Source: Pedobacter sp. JY14-1 | GTDB lineage: Bacteria; Bacteroidota; Bacteroidia; Sphingobacteriales; Sphingobacteriaceae | Length of the DNA: 64,000 bases | Assembly: GCF_029269825.1 (NCBI RefSeq) | Contig: NZ_JARJHU010000001.1 | Location: forward strand, 434,001 to 498,000 | Reading direction: 5' to 3' | In this document: piece by piece, positions 10,326 through 17,074 of the stretch | How positions within the stretch are numbered: the first letter of the stretch is position 1 | Layout of the letters: every line of letters starts with the position of its first letter | Translations under genes and position numbers: made by a program | Notes under the pieces: model-generated | The model's database searches: none | Told to the model about the DNA's origin: nothing | The model's input: the letters and a program-made list of their open reading frames with translations, nothing else

Positions 10326-10446
10326 CCAGGTGTAGTATAAGCCTGGCTGCATCACATGAAGTGACAAAATAACCCGAAAAAAAATTTTAAGACCTGCGTA
10401 GGGGTAAACTCATTTACAGTTGTCTCACTCCCAAACAAGACAACTA

Positions 10447-11499
10447 ATGAAATACTTCAACACTTTAATTCTACGCTGCTCACTATTCATGGCTGGCCTG
10501 CTGGCTACGTTAAATGTTACAGCCCAGAATCAGATGCCGGGACGGATACACGCAGGCCTGATCTATCCTGTGAGTACAAACGGTACTCACGCTCCGGCAG
10601 ATACCAATTATTTTTCGCTGCACCTGGTCGCAGGGGTATCTGCAGCTGAACGCGGCCCATCGTTTGCCGGCATCAGCAATATCGTACGCAATGACGTAAA
10701 AGGCCCCATGTTCGCAGGCTTTTCCAACCATTCAGGCAAGGACGTCGACGGTGCCTTGTTTGCCGGGTTCCTCAATACCTACGGCGGTGGCACGGGCCCG
10801 GCCTTTGGTGGTTTTGCCAATATCGCTACGGGAGACGTTACAGGGGCACAGTTCGCAGGTTTCAGTAATTTTTCCAGGTCTGTCAAAGGCGCACAGTTTG
10901 CAGGCTTCATCAACACGGCAAAGGATGTAAACGGCTCACAGTTTGCCGGTTTCATCAACATTGCCCGCAAGGTAAAGGGTGCGCAGATCGCCGGCTTCAT
11001 CAATATTGCCGATAGCAGCGACTGTCCTGTCGGTATCATCAATATTATTGGAAACGGCGAAAAAAGCATCAGTGCCAGTATAGATGAAACCCTGACCAGC
11101 ATGCTTTCCTTCAGGTCCGGCGGCAAGGTCATGTACGGCATTATCGGCCTGGGCTACAACTTTAAGAATAAAGATGCAGTCTACGCTGCCGAAGCAGGCC
11201 TTGGGGCACACTTCTTTGAATCGAGCTACTTCCGGTTGAATACGGAAATACTCAGTACGACGCTGACCGACTTTAAGAGAGGAAGCTATTTTAAGGGCAG
11301 CCTCAGGATGCTGCCTGCACTTAAGATCGGAGACCACCTGGAGCTCTTTGCCGGACCTTCGCTGCACTTCATCACTACAAATACTGCCGAGGGGGAAAAA
11401 CTCCGGGACAAATACCTCAAAAAATGGCCTGGTGACTGGGATGAGGATTTCCGGGGGCTTTACATCGGCTATACCGGCGGTATCGCACTGCGTTTTTAA
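10447..11499 (+). CDS. exported 15/16-residue-repeat protein (AGF-N repeats), repeat protein A
   Basis: A 350-residue exported protein with a signal peptide ending near VTAQ. Residues about 69-202 consist of seven or eight copies of a 15-16-residue unit, roughly V-x-G-x-Q-F-A-G-F-x-N, as found in LA_2272-type surface repeat proteins. The rest is beta-rich (GIIGLGYNFKN, GLYIGYTGGIALRF) and ends in an aromatic residue, like outer-membrane barrels. It is the first gene of a tight six-gene run. The last gene of that run carries a related repeat array. The ATG at 10447 is preferred over a TTG at 10420. Function unknown; surface or outer-membrane location is inferred. Confidence 0.75.
   Translation: MKYFNTLILRCSLFMAGLLATLNVTAQNQMPGRIHAGLIYPVSTNGTHAPADTNYFSLHLVAGVSAAERGPSFAGISNIVRNDVKGPMFAGFSNHSGKDVDGALFAGFLNTYGGGTGPAFGGFANIATGDVTGAQFAGFSNFSRSVKGAQFAGFINTAKDVNGSQFAGFINIARKVKGAQIAGFINIADSSDCPVGIINIIGNGEKSISASIDETLTSMLSFRSGGKVMYGIIGLGYNFKNKDAVYAAEAGLGAHFFESSYFRLNTEILSTTLTDFKRGSYFKGSLRMLPALKIGDHLELFAGPSLHFITTNTAEGEKLRDKYLKKWPGDWDEDFRGLYIGYTGGIALRF
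10651..11052 (+). repeat. coding tandem repeats, 15-16 residues, in repeat protein A
   Basis: Successive units begin V-K/D/T/N-G and contain FAGF-x-N, for example VTGAQFAGFSNFSRS, VKGAQFAGFINTAKD and VNGSQFAGFINIARK. The regular Gly/Asn spacing suggests stacked beta strands or hairpins. Confidence 0.85.
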
Positions 11500-11537
11500 A
11501 ATCACACAAAAAATCACTATAAAACAAACCATCAATC

Positions 11538-12218
11538 ATGAATACATTTAATTTTTTATCATTGCCTGTTAAAGCTTCTTTCTTTCTGCTTACCGTCGCT
11601 GCAGCGTTTAGTTCGTGCAGCAAGGACAGGCTGACTGCCAGCGGCGACAAGAAGACCGAAGAACGTGAACTGCGTAACTTCAGCGGTGTTGAGTCTGACG
11701 GCAGTACCGACGTCCACCTGAGCTACGGAACATCCTACAAAGTAACGGTTAAGGGTTCTGACAACCTCCTGCCCTATTTTAAAACGGAAGTAAGGGGCGG
11801 TGTGCTCAAAATGGGTTACGAACGCGTCAATGTAAAGCATGACGATATACAGGTATATGTAACACTTCCTGCAGTAAATTATATCGCCATTAGCGGGTCG
11901 GGAGATGTTGACCTGAGCGGCACATTCGATCCCTCTGACGACCTCGAGGTCAGAATCAGCGGATCGGGCGAAATAGAAGCCGAAAATGCCTTTAATGTCA
12001 GGCGTACGAAGATCAGGATCTCTGGATCGGGAGAAGCTGACCTTAAAAGGCTGGCCACAGAACAGGCTGACATCGATATTTCAGGTAGCGGAGACGCAAG
12101 GATTGGTGTTTCCGGCCTGCTGAAAGCCCGGATTAGCGGCAGTGGAAAAGTGTATTACTCGGGTTCGCCGCAGGTAGATGCGCAGGTCAGCGGATCGGGC
12201 AAGGTGATCAAAATCTAA
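11538..12218 (+). CDS. DUF2807 (GIN-domain) lipoprotein
   Basis: A 226-residue lipoprotein with a signal peptide and a FSSCSKD lipid-attachment site. The mature part is a putative auto-transporter adhesin head GIN domain. It has repeated SGSG turns (SGSGDVDLSG, SGSGEIEAEN, SGSGEADLKR, SGSGDARIG, SGSGKVYYSG), the pattern of a right-handed beta-helix. It starts 38 bp after repeat protein A and 25 bp before the desaturase fusion, so cotranscription is likely. The biochemical role of this domain is not established. Confidence 0.88.
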   Translation: MNTFNFLSLPVKASFFLLTVAAAFSSCSKDRLTASGDKKTEERELRNFSGVESDGSTDVHLSYGTSYKVTVKGSDNLLPYFKTEVRGGVLKMGYERVNVKHDDIQVYVTLPAVNYIAISGSGDVDLSGTFDPSDDLEVRISGSGEIEAENAFNVRRTKIRISGSGEADLKRLATEQADIDISGSGDARIGVSGLLKARISGSGKVYYSGSPQVDAQVSGSGKVIKI

Positions 12219-12243
12219 TCAACCTTTCAAAATCTGAAAAGCC

Positions 12244-13755
12244 ATGTCAACATTCCAACTCCACCTTTCAGCAATCCATTCCCTTTTCGGTGCGGCAAAA
12301 ATACCGGCCAGTGAATTTTACGACCTGGAAAAAAGCATGCCTGACCTGATGGTCTACGCGTTGCCCGCCGTGCTTGCATTTACCCTGATCGAGGGGCTGC
12401 TGTCGCATTACAGCGAACATAAGACCCATGAGGGCAGGGAGACGCTGGGTTCCGTGCTCATCGGCGCAGGCAACCTGGCTGTGAACCTGCTCATGAAGGT
12501 TGTATTGTTATATGCAGCGGTCTGGCTGTACAATGCCCTGCCCTGGCGGATGGAATTGAACTGGTGGACCTTACCCTTCTGCTTTTTGATCTACGATTGC
12601 TGTTCCTACTGGTCACACCGCATCTCACATTTCAACCGTTTTTTCTGGGCAACACATGTGGTACACCATTCAGCAGCGCATTATAACCTGACGGTTGCCT
12701 TTCGTCAGAGCTGGGTGCAGCATTTCAAAACGATATTCTTCATCCCTGTTGCCCTGATGGGGTTCCATCCGGTGGTTTTCTTCGTGGTCAGCCAACTCAG
12801 TACGCTTTACCAGTTCTGGGTGCATACTGAGCGGATCGGCAGGTTGCACCCTTTTATTGAAAAGTATTTCGGTACGCCTTCCAACCACAGGGTACACCAC
12901 GGCAGTCAGGAAAAATACCTGGACAAAAATTTCGGGGCTACTTTTATGGTCTGGGACCATTTATTCGGAACTTTCCAGTATGAAGAGGAAAAGCCGGTAT
13001 ATGGGCTGACAACTCCGCTGAAGCACAAGACGAATCCTTTTGTCTTAAATTTTCATGAATACCGGGACATGCTGCATGACATCAGGCGCAGTGACGGTAT
13101 CAGAGAACTGCTGTTCTTTATATTTGCCAGCCCGGCTAAGATCTACCGTCATAAGGCAGAGCGCCAGGTAAAGCAAATAAATAAGGCACTGGAAAGGCAC
13201 AACAAGACAAAATACCTGGTGGCGGGATTCCTGCTGTTCATGGCGCTGATGCTAGTGCAGATGAGTCCTGCGCAGAGCTTGGACAACAGGCCCGCATTAC
13301 CAACACCAAGAAGTGAGCACATGTTGTTTTTTCTGCAGCGCGATCCTGATGCGAACACGGTAATCTATGAACTGAATTACGGTGCAGACGGAAAGCTTGA
13401 TGACAGAAGACCGGTAAAGGGCTCGTGGATTAGATACGCTGAAGATGGCAGGTGCAAGGAACTGACCGCGATTGAGAACAAGTTTGCCTACGGGCTCAGG
13501 TGCAAGGCGCTTGGACATGATGTCTACGAGATCAGATTGATGGCCTATAAAAAGATTCCATTGTACCTAAAACGTGCGGAAGAAGACAATAAGTATAAGA
13601 TATATATACGCGACGAGGGCCAGGACAAATTGCTGAAACGCATCTTTGTACGGGTAAATGGCGGTTCCTTCTGGTTTCCACGGGTAGAATATATAGACCT
13701 GATCACGGTGAGCAGTGCATCGGGAATGGAAATGCTGAAGCGGATCAGCATCTGA
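12244..13755 (+). CDS. sterol desaturase/fatty-acid hydroxylase fused to a DUF4833-like domain
   Basis: A 503-residue membrane protein. Residues 1-290 are a di-iron fatty-acid hydroxylase/sterol desaturase with the three histidine boxes HRISH (125-129), HVVHH (138-142) and HRVHH (215-219). Such enzymes oxidise lipid C-H bonds at the inner membrane. Residues 324-341 form an extra hydrophobic segment followed by SPAQS, like a second signal peptide. Residues 350-503 form a soluble domain resembling DUF4833 (FLQRDPDANTVIYELNYG). This looks like a fusion of a desaturase with an exported protein. The sigma factor gene begins 20 bp downstream. Confidence 0.85.
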   Translation: MSTFQLHLSAIHSLFGAAKIPASEFYDLEKSMPDLMVYALPAVLAFTLIEGLLSHYSEHKTHEGRETLGSVLIGAGNLAVNLLMKVVLLYAAVWLYNALPWRMELNWWTLPFCFLIYDCCSYWSHRISHFNRFFWATHVVHHSAAHYNLTVAFRQSWVQHFKTIFFIPVALMGFHPVVFFVVSQLSTLYQFWVHTERIGRLHPFIEKYFGTPSNHRVHHGSQEKYLDKNFGATFMVWDHLFGTFQYEEEKPVYGLTTPLKHKTNPFVLNFHEYRDMLHDIRRSDGIRELLFFIFASPAKIYRHKAERQVKQINKALERHNKTKYLVAGFLLFMALMLVQMSPAQSLDNRPALPTPRSEHMLFFLQRDPDANTVIYELNYGADGKLDDRRPVKGSWIRYAEDGRCKELTAIENKFAYGLRCKALGHDVYEIRLMAYKKIPLYLKRAEEDNKYKIYIRDEGQDKLLKRIFVRVNGGSFWFPRVEYIDLITVSSASGMEMLKRISI

Positions 13756-13775
13756 AAAAAGAATATATTTACGGC

Positions 13776-14336
13776 ATGGAGCAACGCTTTGACGATCTGG
13801 CCTTTGAAAGGCTCTTTAAGGACCACTACAGGGAGCTTCACGCCTATGCCCAGGTGATACTGAGAGATACCATTACGGCGGAGGAGATCGTGCAGGGCAT
13901 GTTCCTGAAATTCTGGGAAAAAAGAGCATTGCTGGACATTCAGACCTCTGTAAAGGCCTATCTATACCGGTGTGTTTACAACGACAGTATGAATTACCTG
14001 AAACATGAGAAGATCAAGCTGAAATATACGGATTTTGTGGTGCATTCGATGAACGGGACGCATGAACCTGCCTCTGCAAAGACCGAACTCGGCGAACTGG
14101 AACTTCAGTTGCACCATGCGCTCAATGAATTGCCGGAACAATGTCGCACGATTTTTCAAATGAGCCGTTTTGAGGAACTGAAGTACAGGGAAATTGCTGA
14201 AGAACTGGGGCTTTCGGTAAAAACGGTAGAGAACCAGATGAGTAAGGCATTGATGCTGCTGCGCCTGAAACTGGCAGACTTTATTACGTTGATGGTTATC
14301 GCATTGTGGGTTTATTACAGGGATTTTTTTAATTAA
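13776..14336 (+). CDS. ECF RNA polymerase sigma factor, FecI-like Bacteroidota type
   Basis: A 186-residue sigma-70 factor of the extracytoplasmic-function class. Region 2 (FERLFKDHYRELHAYAQ, AEEIVQGMFLKFWEK) and region 4 (LPEQCRTIFQMSRFEELKYREIAEELGLSVKTVENQMSKAL) are both complete. The C-terminus is a hydrophobic tail common in Bacteroidota members. It directs RNA polymerase to a small regulon when released by its anti-sigma factor, encoded 6 bp downstream. The targets probably include its own operon, but no recognisable ECF promoter pair was identified. Confidence 0.93.
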   Translation: MEQRFDDLAFERLFKDHYRELHAYAQVILRDTITAEEIVQGMFLKFWEKRALLDIQTSVKAYLYRCVYNDSMNYLKHEKIKLKYTDFVVHSMNGTHEPASAKTELGELELQLHHALNELPEQCRTIFQMSRFEELKYREIAEELGLSVKTVENQMSKALMLLRLKLADFITLMVIALWVYYRDFFN

Positions 14337-14342
14337 GCGGAG

Positions 14343-15335
14343 ATGGAAGAAGAAATATTGATCAGGTATATGCTTGACGAGGTCACTGAGGGGGAGCGTA
14401 TGGAAGTCATGGACTGGTTATCGGAAAGCGAGTCCAATGCCCGGTATTATGCGCAGCTGGAAAAAATATGGACAGCAGGGAAAAAGCTTGCTGCAGCCAG
14501 CCCGGCAGACCCTGAAGCGGCCTGGATACGTTTCAGAGAGAAAGTGGCGGGGAACGTGGAGAAGGAAAGTCCCGGACTGCCCGTTTCGGAAGCATTTGTA
14601 CGGCCAATGCACCGTAGTTTCAGATGGATGCAGGTCGCGGCAGCAGTGCTGCTGGTGGGTATGGCCTGGATGGCTTATCAATGGTTTGGACCGGGCAGGT
14701 ATGAGGAACTGGTGAGCCGCGATATAGTGCGCAGGGAAAAGCTCCCTGACGGTTCTGAACTGACACTGAACAAAAACACCGTGATCAGCTACGTGGCACG
14801 CTTTGAAAATAACAGGCGACTGAAATTAAAGGAAGGGGAAGCTTTCTTTGATGTGGCGCATGATAAAAGCCATCCTTTTGTGATCGATATCGAAGAAGTA
14901 TCGGTAACCGTTGTAGGTACTTCGTTCAACATCAGGCATCATCAGGACAGCACAGAAGTCATTGTAGAGACGGGAATCGTCAGGGTTTCTCTGAACGGAA
15001 AGGCAATTGAACTGCATAAAGGAGAAAAAGTACTGATATCTTCTGCCTATGACAGGCTGGACAAAGAACAGAATACCGATGAGCTCTATAATTATTACCG
15101 CAGCAATTTATTTGTAGCCAGTAATCTGCCGCTGCAGCGGCTGGTGGATGTAATGAACGAGGCTTACGGAAAACCAAGGATCATCATCAAAGATCCGTCT
15201 GTGGCCTCAGAAATTATCAATACGACATTCCGGGTAGACAGTGGCCTGGATTATGGCGTACAATTGATTTGCGAAATGTCAAATTTAAAGGCCGAACGTA
15301 ACGAAAACGAAATTTTGTTGTCCAGGATCAAATGA
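14343..15335 (+). CDS. FecR-family anti-sigma factor
   Basis: A 330-residue inner-membrane anti-sigma factor. An N-terminal cytoplasmic segment is followed by one transmembrane helix (MQVAAAVLLVGMAWMAYQWF, about residues 96-115). A periplasmic FecR domain comes next (LPDGSELTLNKNTVISY, GEAFFDVAHDKSHPFVI, VTVVGTSFNIR), with a C-terminal DUF4974-like part. It should hold the ECF sigma factor until a signal arrives through an STN-domain partner. Its stop codon overlaps the start of the STN/repeat gene, implying coupled translation. Confidence 0.93.
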   Translation: MEEEILIRYMLDEVTEGERMEVMDWLSESESNARYYAQLEKIWTAGKKLAAASPADPEAAWIRFREKVAGNVEKESPGLPVSEAFVRPMHRSFRWMQVAAAVLLVGMAWMAYQWFGPGRYEELVSRDIVRREKLPDGSELTLNKNTVISYVARFENNRRLKLKEGEAFFDVAHDKSHPFVIDIEEVSVTVVGTSFNIRHHQDSTEVIVETGIVRVSLNGKAIELHKGEKVLISSAYDRLDKEQNTDELYNYYRSNLFVASNLPLQRLVDVMNEAYGKPRIIIKDPSVASEIINTTFRVDSGLDYGVQLICEMSNLKAERNENEILLSRIK

Positions 15336-17074
15336 TGAAACTGAATTTTACGCTCCTCTTCCTGTTTTATGTGTGCTTTGGCTTTGCCCAGAATGCGGCA
15401 CCCGATTACCGTCATAACCTGGACAAGCGCATCACGGTCAGTATACAGCGGCAACCACTCGGAAGTGTGCTCGAACAGATTGGTAAAGCTGGTGATTTTT
15501 ATTTTTCCTATATCGGAAAACTGATCCGGCAGGACAGTATAGTGAGTCTGAACGTGCAGTCAAAACCGGTACGTGACATTCTGGACCAGCTTTTCGACGG
15601 AAAGGTGGATTACAGGGAGTTCCGTGAGCATATCGTGCTGCGCTATGCAGCTAACCGTTTCACGATTGAGCCTGAAAACATCATCAGCGCGGAGGATCTG
15701 TATACGATCAGTGGTTTTGTCGTAGACCTGAGAACGGGAAAGCGGGTAAAGCAGGCCAGCGTTTATGAAAAGCGGTTGCTGCAATCGGGCCTGACCGATG
15801 AGAATGGCTATTTCAGGCTGCGTTTTAAGGGCAATTACAATGAGGTGATCTTAACGGCCAGCAAGGAAAACTACCGGGATACATCGCTGATCTTTCTTGC
15901 AGACCTGAAGATAAGGCCTGAAGGTTACAGCGACAACGACGACGAATTCATGAAGCGGGTCGGCAATGCCATTGAAAGTTCCGGTATCAGCAGGTTCTTT
16001 ATTTCTTCCCGGCAACGGGTGCAGAGCCTGAACATCCCGGATTTCTTTGCCAATACACCATTCCAGGCTTCACTCACTCCGGGACTGAGTTCTCATGGCA
16101 TGATGAGTTCGCAGGTAATCAATAAATTCTCACTGAACGTCATCGGCGGGTACACCGCGGGGGTGAACGGGTTTGAAATGGGCGGTATGTTCAATATCAG
16201 TAAAGGGGATGTAAACAAGGCACAGATCGCCGGAGGGTTCAATGCCATTGGCGGTTCGGTAAACGGCGTACAGATCGGCGGGCTGCTCAATGATGTCCGT
16301 TCCGGAATGAACGGCGTACAGGTTGCAGGGGCGGTCAACCGGGTACAAAGAAGTATGACCGGTGTACAGATCGGCGGCGTGCTGAACCTGGTTGCCGATT
16401 CTGTAAGAGGTACCCAGATTGCGGGGGCCGTAAATATAGGCACAAAGAAGACCGACGGACTTCAGGTCGCGGGAGCGGTCAATATTGCCGCGAAAGGCTT
16501 CCGGGGTACGCAGATCGGACTGCTCAATTATGCACGCGATATGGACGGCCTGCAGATCGGGCTTTTCAATGTCTCTTCGCGGAACGACGGAGTAAGTATC
16601 GGACTGATCAACCTGGTACAACATGGCTATCATAAGATCAGCTTGTCTTCTAATGAACTGATCAATACAAATGCCGCATTTAAGATGGGCAATGCAAATC
16701 TGTACAATATCCTTTTTGCCGGAAAAAACTTTTCGGATACAGCCAGAATGGAAACCGCGGGGCTGGGCTTTGGGCATGACTTTATTTTCAGTAACCGGTT
16801 CTCCATAGCGACGGAGGCCACCTCGCAATATATTTACCTGGGAAACTGGGATTACGCGAATTTTCTGAACAGGTTCCAGGCGAACGTGCAGGTGCAGCTT
16901 GTAAAAGGGCTTACCGTATTTGCAGGCCTGGTTTATTCCGTATACACCAGCGAGGCACCAGTAGGGTCAAGTGCCGGGGGTTACAAACAACAGGTCTATC
17001 CCGACAGGAGACACGATTTTACTGGTGATGTCAAGGGATGGTGGGGCTTTAACTTCGGTATTACCTTGTTTTAG
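15332..17074 (+). CDS. STN-domain protein with carboxypeptidase-regulatory-like domain and surface repeats, repeat protein B
   Basis: A 580-residue exported protein with a signal peptide ending near GFAQ. Domains in order: a secretin/TonB N-terminal (STN) domain at about 32-108; a CarboxypepD_reg-like domain at about 126-190 (ISGFVVDLRTGKRVKQASV, GLTDENGYFRLRF); ten repeats of 14-16 residues at 278-431; and a beta-rich C-terminus. The position after sigma/FecR and the STN domain match FecA- or SusC-type signal receptors, but the plug and 22-strand barrel are absent. Instead it has repeats like those of the first gene of the run. A receptor or surface role is inferred. Confidence 0.8.
   Translation: MMKLNFTLLFLFYVCFGFAQNAAPDYRHNLDKRITVSIQRQPLGSVLEQIGKAGDFYFSYIGKLIRQDSIVSLNVQSKPVRDILDQLFDGKVDYREFREHIVLRYAANRFTIEPENIISAEDLYTISGFVVDLRTGKRVKQASVYEKRLLQSGLTDENGYFRLRFKGNYNEVILTASKENYRDTSLIFLADLKIRPEGYSDNDDEFMKRVGNAIESSGISRFFISSRQRVQSLNIPDFFANTPFQASLTPGLSSHGMMSSQVINKFSLNVIGGYTAGVNGFEMGGMFNISKGDVNKAQIAGGFNAIGGSVNGVQIGGLLNDVRSGMNGVQVAGAVNRVQRSMTGVQIGGVLNLVADSVRGTQIAGAVNIGTKKTDGLQVAGAVNIAAKGFRGTQIGLLNYARDMDGLQIGLFNVSSRNDGVSIGLINLVQHGYHKISLSSNELINTNAAFKMGNANLYNILFAGKNFSDTARMETAGLGFGHDFIFSNRFSIATEATSQYIYLGNWDYANFLNRFQANVQVQLVKGLTVFAGLVYSVYTSEAPVGSSAGGYKQQVYPDRRHDFTGDVKGWWGFNFGITLF
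16163..16624 (+). repeat. coding tandem repeats, 14-16 residues, in repeat protein B
   Basis: Seven 16-residue units and then three of about 14 residues, consensus V/M-x-G-x-Q-I/V-A/G-G-x-x-N. Examples are VNGVQIGGLLNDVRSG, MNGVQVAGAVNRVQRS and VRGTQIAGAVNIGTKK. Confidence 0.88.

Follow-up and report, generated by a model that had tools for sequence, protein, structure and literature searches.

Switches built from a FecI-type extracytoplasmic function (ECF) sigma factor and a FecR-type anti-sigma factor normally work through a nutrient-import barrel, and the many FecI/FecR pairs of Bacteroidota are usually filed under nutrient import. The present analysis concerns one such pair and its neighbours, six plus-strand genes (G1 to G6) at positions 10447-17074 of a 64,000-nucleotide stretch of Pedobacter sp. 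JY14-1 (contig NZ_JARJHU010000001.1, positions 434,001 to 498,000; hereafter the window, in which all plain coordinates are counted), where the gene behind FecR encodes a protein that carries an STN domain yet is no TonB-dependent receptor. In Pseudomonas it is established that STN-type domains make contact with FecR-type anti-sigma factors (PMC11637429, PMC7186176), VreA is a known STN receptor without a barrel (PMC2729926), and the Dma/Reo anti-sigma factors of Bacteroidales are described as bearing an outer-membrane barrel of their own, with an outer-membrane stress response as the proposed function (PMC9308784, PMC13114119, PMC13088901). With moderate confidence, we read the locus as a cell-surface-signalling sigma/anti-sigma system with a non-TonB transducer, G6, that probably monitors the outer membrane. 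The predicted wiring (a non-TonB transducer, FecR, a sigma factor and one sharp promoter) is well supported by sequence comparison, and the most likely job is probably outer-membrane homeostasis, because the promoter motif in relatives precedes genes for outer-membrane barrels and lipid A acyltransferases. The genes and the motif ahead of them are:

10397..10427, plus strand: predicted ECF-type promoter motif CGTAGGGGTAAACTCATTTACAGTTGTCTCA, 22 nt before the ATG of G1
10447..11499, plus strand: G1, signal peptide, LA_2272-like beta-solenoid and 8-stranded outer-membrane barrel
11538..12218, plus strand: G2, DUF2807 (head GIN) protein with lipoprotein-like N-terminus, accessory (Pfam, 120.8 bits)
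12244..13755, plus strand: G3, FA_hydroxylase and DUF4833 fusion, accessory (Pfam, 94.3 and 147 bits)
13776..14336, plus strand: G4, ECF sigma factor of TIGR02985 type (170.9 bits, cut-off 126.4)
14343..15335, plus strand: G5, FecR-type anti-sigma factor (FecR 70.5 bits, cut-off 24)
15332..17074, plus strand: G6, STN, CarbopepD, linker, solenoid and barrel; proposed transducer

G6 carries the argument. The initial annotation, made from the sequence alone, had assigned it an STN and carboxypeptidase-regulatory head, and this was borne out in the aligned G6 members at E<=0.001 (STN in 62 of 70, CarbopepD in 70 of 70, window protein included) as well as by the fold of the model (AlphaFold2 with 69 relatives in the alignment; mean pLDDT 80.7, at least 90 over most of residues 320-580). 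It had also raised the possibility that structural modelling would reveal a true TonB-dependent receptor. A hidden TonB receptor is ruled out by the domain searches, in which no Plug or TonB-receptor domain matched at E<=0.001 in any of the 70 members, together with a model that has an 8-stranded barrel; the locus was thus correctly described as a FecI/FecR unit with an STN protein of a kind other than TonB receptors. The accompanying statement that the receptor barrel is lacking holds for the TonB-receptor barrel and fails elsewhere, in that G1 and G6 both end in an 8-stranded barrel of their own. The parts of the two proteins, as modelled, are:

15428..15646, plus strand: G6 STN domain, residues 33-105 (secondary structure of the model; Pfam)
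15653..15898, plus strand: G6 carboxypeptidase-regulatory-like beta-sandwich, about residues 108-189 (Pfam; VIA)
15899..16120, plus strand: G6 low-confidence linker, about residues 190-263 (pLDDT below 50 at 191-209 and 225-263)
16121..16624, plus strand: G6 repeat array, a beta-solenoid of 16-residue coils, about residues 264-431 (NF047436; VIA)
16625..17071, plus strand: G6 8-stranded outer-membrane barrel, residues 432-580 (VIA; C-terminal Phe)
10552-11058, plus strand: G1 beta-solenoid, about residues 36-204 (model; LA_2272-like)
11059-11496, plus strand: G1 8-stranded barrel, about residues 205-350 (model; VIA)

In VIA, the C-terminal region of G6 (432-580) resembled the OprF N-domain (Z 13.9, rmsd 2.6, 121 residues) and NspA (Z 13.1, rmsd 2.8, 131 residues), the stretch of about 238-432 resembled beta-helices such as tailspike 6f7d (Z 12.2, rmsd 3.2, 191 residues), and that of about 107-193 beta-sandwiches (up to Z 11.0, rmsd 2.4, 86 residues). 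The rows that bear on solenoid handedness gave GlmU/LpxD at Z 13-15 but with rmsd above 9, and tailspike at Z of about 9-12 with rmsd 3-4. Foldseek placed the G6 head near DotD and PilQ N0 at E 0.01-0.07, and for the whole G6 model it returned no match reaching E 0.001. LA_2272 repeats (NF047436) were matched in G6 at 48.4 bits, above the cut-off of 25, and across 54 G6 proteins the solenoid changes length by steps of 16 residues, within 2 residues, which fits whole coils. A C-terminal Phe, present in 45 of 70 G6 and 46 of 55 G1 members, fits insertion into the outer membrane. Similarity of G6 to the VC2662 repeat family is partial (35.2 bits, cut-off 140); VC2662 is reported to have been enriched in a Vibrio cholerae ompU mutant (PMC10865864), a weak hint. 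As regards domain order, G6 has STN ahead of CarbopepD, as does a SusC-like receptor linked to FecR in the same genome (L091:12857-16291); one account of SusC proteins describes the CarbopepD-type extension as preceding STN (PMC7782687).

The first and last proteins of the locus are indeed related, as the initial annotation had it: BLASTP aligns G1 and G6 at E 9e-26, profile-profile comparison at E 2e-55 over 348 columns (G6 241-580), and the whole length of G1 corresponds to the second half of G6. The G1 model (AlphaFold; mean pLDDT 88.8, pTM 0.64) has the same solenoid and barrel, the latter matching the OprF N-domain in VIA at Z 15.4 (rmsd 2.5, 122 residues). The LA_2272 repeat scores 15.3 bits in G1 itself, under the cut-off, and is found at E<=0.001 in 14 of 55 aligned members. 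A sequence match of G1 to a solved structure at E 0.028 was judged unconvincing. Only the last barrel connection is long in either model (26 residues in G6, 23 in G1); the remaining odd-numbered ones are slightly longer on average (about 5.3 versus 3.3 and 3.7 residues). These lengths, read with standard topology, place the N-terminus and solenoid in the periplasm, so that the models suggest periplasmic solenoids for both proteins. Exposure of the repeats at the surface is unsupported by the connection lengths, in which differences apart from the last connection are small. The 16-residue length steps are sharp in G6 and less so in G1. Outside the window's class, solenoid-barrel matches were seen without an STN head, in frames of about 390-530 residues (e.g. 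G470:C4:674228-675541), so the solenoid-barrel family may predate the signalling fusion or extend beyond it.

Conservation of the unit was assessed in two locus sets that share genomes, namely 57 neighbourhoods from family genomes (the stronger G6 matches) and 80 named loci from Pedobacter, Daejeonella, Hufsiella, Arcticibacter, Mucilaginibacter, Taibaiella, Terrimonas, Chitinophaga and others, the script for the latter allowing gaps of up to 200 nt. Alignments A1, A2 and A5 hold 44, 14 and 22 of the 57 family loci; of the 80 named loci, with near-duplicates removed, A3 holds 69, and A4 holds 54 of the 68 that have a G1 match; the window protein is in each. The order sigma, FecR, G6 on one strand was found at 56 of the 57 family loci. 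Among the named loci the script placed FecR next to G6 in 78/80 and sigma plus FecR in 77/80; after hand checking, 78 have both before G6 (L150 keeps the order), the two misses being L162, which ends at a contig edge, and L171, where sigma and FecR are absent. The initial annotation had proposed a search for other genomes with an STN-repeat protein behind FecR, and these loci supply them. G1 lies near G6 in 68 of the 80 (58 upstream, 10 downstream), and G2 and G3 occur upstream of G6 in 37 and 35. The conserved unit is sigma, FecR and G6, usually with G1, and the remaining cargo is variable; the earlier notion of six genes forming a single conserved unit was rejected, G2 and G3 being optional.

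The nearest named relatives of G6 are Pedobacter proteins, the best at 67% identity in P. psychroterrae. Within the genus, 39 of the 69 genomes listed match G6 at E<1e-30 (hand count), and within the family 242 of 301 match at E<=0.001, a figure in which weak matches to ordinary STN receptors are also counted. Of 296 genomes sampled across the phylum, at least 14 have a frame matching head and repeat/barrel, all of the window's class as judged by eye; among the matches listed for other classes were repeat/barrel proteins without the head and a few weak head-only matches. A single-protein scan of the named genomes gave no match.

The promoter motif, CGTAGGGGTAAA-N10-GTTGTCTCA, was recognised in the sequences upstream of G1, with TAGGGGT in 49/57 and GGGGT-N14-TTGTC in 39/57. 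Alignment of 43 sites at that spacing showed that CGTAGGGGTA and GTTGTC hardly vary; most of the sites lie 20-23 nt ahead of the start codon. The alignment of upstream sequences missed motifs where frames extended upstream; whole loci were covered by scanning with a weight matrix trained on 50 sites, many of them among its own later matches. Over the 80 named loci (about 1.5 Mb) the matrix gave 74 sites of at least 14 bits, labelled G1 (57), sigma (7), G6-like (1) and other (9), and in a mononucleotide-shuffled control (30 loci, 0.58 Mb) no site reached 10 bits. Two of the nine others belong to G1 and one to sigma behind a small spurious frame, and the remaining six stand before four CarbopepD-type proteins (776-807 residues) and two DUF6134-type proteins. 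The motif precedes G1, or sigma where sigma comes first. In the Pedobacter sp. JY14-1 genome the extended pattern occurs perfectly once, at the operon, every other match having 3 mismatches, a level at which the backward control (36 matches) exceeds the pattern (19) and matches carry no meaning. The exact pattern is found in 31 of 251 family genomes, with one control match. Within the genus, 28 genomes with a G6 match (E<1e-30) were compared with 24 that lack one: the exact motif occurs in 19 of the former and in none of the latter. At one mismatch the counts are 23 of 28 with such a match and 1 of 19 without, and kinship inflates the p-values of such comparisons. G4 is the putative reader of the motif.

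At the locus itself, the six genes lie on one strand with gaps of 38, 25, 20, 6 and -4 nt, in keeping with the maximum of 38 bp first noted, and their coexpression would be expected from this spacing and the single promoter motif; a terminator scan after G6 gave a single site, on the other strand. The start of G1 is likely the ATG at 10447, because the alternative frame start at 10420 falls within the motif. The families first named for G2, G4 and G5 were also matched, and what had been called a desaturase fusion is the FA_hydroxylase-DUF4833 protein G3, which scores 49.5 bits against NCBIfam OlsE, well under the cut-off of 475. The FecI-like sigma factor adjoins the FecR-like anti-sigma factor at 6 nt, and the anti-sigma factor (14343-15335) and barrel protein (15332-17074) are separate genes. 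FecR_C (Pfam) was found at E<=0.001 in 22 of 23 aligned G5 members. Near its C-terminus G4 has a hydrophobic stretch (residues 159-177, window 14250-14306, plus strand; mean hydropathy 1.97), and the sigma factors of relatives have similar-looking tails, which may be a membrane tether.

Beyond the operon, the genus holds 111 sites at one mismatch in 53 of 99 genomes (hand count), against 5 for the backward control. Of these, 58 were read, and among the other 53 several are operon sites or lie in 14 further regions. First genes were named by BLAST against one reference each, that is by N-terminal resemblance (TonB-receptor-like scores 47-583 bits), and Pfam was run on three OMP_b-brl_2-type genes only (L261, L266, L269), 2/10 TonB-receptor-like genes (one with Plug under the cut-off), 3/9 DUF6268-type genes and 4/8 acyltransferases. 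The first genes comprise 14 OMP_b-brl_2-type, 10 TonB-receptor-like, 9 DUF6268-type, 8 lipid A acyltransferase, 8 G1, 6 DUF6134, 1 DUF2807 and 2 unrecognised. Thus 8 sites lie at the head of this operon and 42 ahead of other envelope genes (including those for DUF6268 proteins, which we take to be outer-membrane barrels), with 6 more before DUF6134 genes. At 5 of the 8 acyltransferase sites about 305 nt, with a short open frame, separate the motif from the gene downstream; in L305, L334, L345, L349 and L356 (motif near position 301) this intervening frame resembles a small membrane protein.

The fourteen further regions carry exact sites, six of them before OMP_b-brl_2-type genes, and in L269 such a gene stands at the head of a sigma-FecR-G6-G1 operon. 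L270 has two sites, before sigma and before G1, L273 one before sigma, and L271 one upstream of FecR-G6 (the sigma frame was not among the frames listed). In L274 the site precedes a TonB-receptor-like and DUF4249 pair, in L272 it lies 429 nt before an OMP_b-brl gene, and other genes follow it in L267 and L268. A variant motif that ends in GTTGTA marks the DUF6134 sites (L311, L312, L314, L340, L343, L353). Because a GTTGTA-variant site also lies 4-5 kb upstream of a second G6 homologue, on the same strand, in eight genomes (genomes G154, G161, G173, G197, G212, G224, G230 and G266), a paralogous switch with its own promoter flavour is suggested. In the Pedobacter sp. JY14-1 genome the acyltransferase homologue has 35% identity, and the search for a DUF6268 homologue gave no match, an empty search result that is uninformative.

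Under the outer-membrane reading, G6 would be anchored in the outer membrane by its 8-stranded barrel, with solenoid and linker in the periplasm, and its N-terminal STN would touch the periplasmic C-terminal domain of FecR (G5) in the manner of the TonB transducers of the FecIRA, Pup and Fox systems. The STN-FecR contact would be altered by changes in the outer membrane itself, in the assembly of the barrel or in a ligand that binds the barrel or the solenoid, whereupon FecR would release G4, probably through regulated proteolysis, and G4 would read CGTAGGGGTAAA-N10-GTTGTCTCA to yield G1, accessory envelope proteins, G4 itself, FecR and more G6. More tentatively, and as a possibility we would put below even chances, G6 may be a duplicate of the effector G1 that became a sensor by gaining a SusC-type STN-CarbopepD head. 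Sensor and effector would then compete for one assembly factor, ligand or membrane state: a shortage of G1-type barrel would free G6 to signal, and the G1 so produced would silence it. If so, Sphingobacteriales and Chitinophagales could gauge the integrity of the outer membrane with this system, which would be the two-protein equivalent of Dma/Reo and of sigma-E and whose regulon in relatives would span barrels and lipid A acylation.

Several observations weigh against the outer-membrane reading. The head domains and FecR_C are below Pfam cut-offs in the window proteins themselves (STN 20.3 bits against 28.4, CarbopepD_reg_2 24.9 against 32.2, and FecR_C of G5 16.9 against 24.4), and the pTM of the G6 model is 0.53. 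In L083, the exception among the family loci, sigma and FecR are on the strand opposite to G6, and in L171 G6 has no adjoining FecR. No site reached 14 bits in 11 of the 80 named loci; in the Pedobacter sp. JY14-1 genome TAGGGGT-N14-TTGTC has ten one-mismatch matches, and at up to 2 mismatches the backward control gives 456 against 221. The OMP homologue of this genome (35% identity) has no motif in the stretch read, the best score being negative, and because the only good motif of the genome is that of the operon, its own regulon may extend no further than this operon. Given the relatedness among genomes and among sites, the counts are not independent.

The remaining points bear on rival explanations. 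That the switch senses the envelope instead of nutrient import, as the initial annotation held, is upheld insofar as the predicted regulon in relatives points to the envelope and is qualified by TonB-receptor-like genes at 10/58 sites and in the clusters of relatives, which would also fit transport. G6 might accordingly be an adaptor for a TonB-dependent receptor encoded elsewhere and still report substrate import, a reading we regard as rather unlikely. It draws on the FecR genes of the genome, 18 in all (neighbours assessed by BLAST on the flanks, with Pfam on three), 15 of which are followed by a gene resembling a SusC/TonB-receptor head; on several relatives in which G6 is followed by, or the motif is borne by, a TonB-receptor-like gene that sometimes has a DUF4249 partner; and on VreA of Pseudomonas aeruginosa, described as having an STN, no barrel and unknown outer-membrane receptors as proposed partners (PMC2729926). 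It is countered by the absence of a TonB-receptor gene from the window operon, by the barrel in the G6 model itself, and by the 8/58 sites before lipid A acyltransferases and 23/58 before OMP_b-brl_2- or DUF6268-type genes. As to the three remaining FecR genes, one is at this locus; in L297 (G000:C8:274500-277042) a SusD-like gene directly follows FecR, with no receptor-length frame in the stretch read; and in L298 (4528-5997, minus strand; G000:C5:510527-511996) a 490-residue STN-CarbopepD protein without TonB-receptor domains begins 6 nt after FecR and is itself followed by a frame of 1490 residues or more. With L298, the G6 locus is not the only one to pair FecR with a non-receptor STN protein.

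We attach little credence to the idea that the motif is owned by another envelope sigma factor, with the sigma-FecR-G6 genes merely one target. Five G6-bearing genus genomes without the motif within one mismatch, and one with the motif and without G6, would be explained by it, but the motif heads the operon of the system in most loci, stands before sigma where sigma comes first, tracks G6 presence in the genus and, as the GTTGTA variant, precedes the second G6 homologue in eight genomes. The earlier proposal that G1 and G6 form a shared surface structure or adhesin, so that the switch senses surface contact, appears very improbable. The repeat family is named 'surface repeat-containing', the two proteins are homologous and usually linked, and their solenoid lengths correlate (Spearman 0.62 over 54 pairs); common descent confounds this correlation, which was set aside as a sign of contact, and the periplasmic placement of the solenoids under standard topology, with a single long connection per barrel, speaks against surface exposure.

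In this conserved class a small outer-membrane barrel takes the place of the TonB receptor; the class has a sharp promoter motif and appears, in relatives, to govern outer-membrane barrels and lipid A acylation. If the outer-membrane reading is right, it would give a large group of environmental bacteria a way to watch the outer membrane and tie cell-surface signalling to the recently described Dma/Reo switches, and the motif would make the regulons testable across dozens of genomes. That the proposed sensor is related to its own putative effector suggests a simple feedback design. No description of the G6-type architecture was met in the open-access literature searched, which is no claim of its absence from print.

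Compared with described systems, the locus shares with FecIRA (Fox, Pup; PMC11637429, PMC7186176, so far as these accounts describe them) a FecI-like sigma factor, a FecR-like anti-sigma factor and an STN on an outer-membrane protein, and the motif at the operon head would fit autoregulation as well; unlike in FecIRA, G6 has neither plug nor TonB-receptor barrel, and a solenoid and 8-stranded barrel are present instead. With PUMA3 (VreA-VreI-VreR; PMC2729926) it has in common an STN-bearing cell-surface-signalling receptor that is not a TonB receptor, whereas VreA, in contrast to G6 with its predicted barrel, is described as barrel-less and mostly soluble, its C-terminal domain resembling TolA/TonB. 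The G6 array passes the NF047436 cut-off as LA_2272/VC2662 repeat proteins do (NF047436, NF047437), yet G6 adds the STN-CarbopepD head, and G1 alone falls under the cut-off. As in Dma and EcfO-Reo, an ECF sigma factor would be controlled by a chain from the inner membrane to an outer-membrane barrel, with envelope stress as the proposed signal; the chain here would consist of FecR and G6 joined by a presumed STN-like contact, with a solenoid, whereas Dma itself is a single chain with a disordered tether, and its sigma factor is of ECF21 type, the best model for G4 being TIGR02985 (only NCBIfam and Pfam were run). The system resembles a two-protein Dma made from FecIRA parts and, by strict test, is a member of neither.

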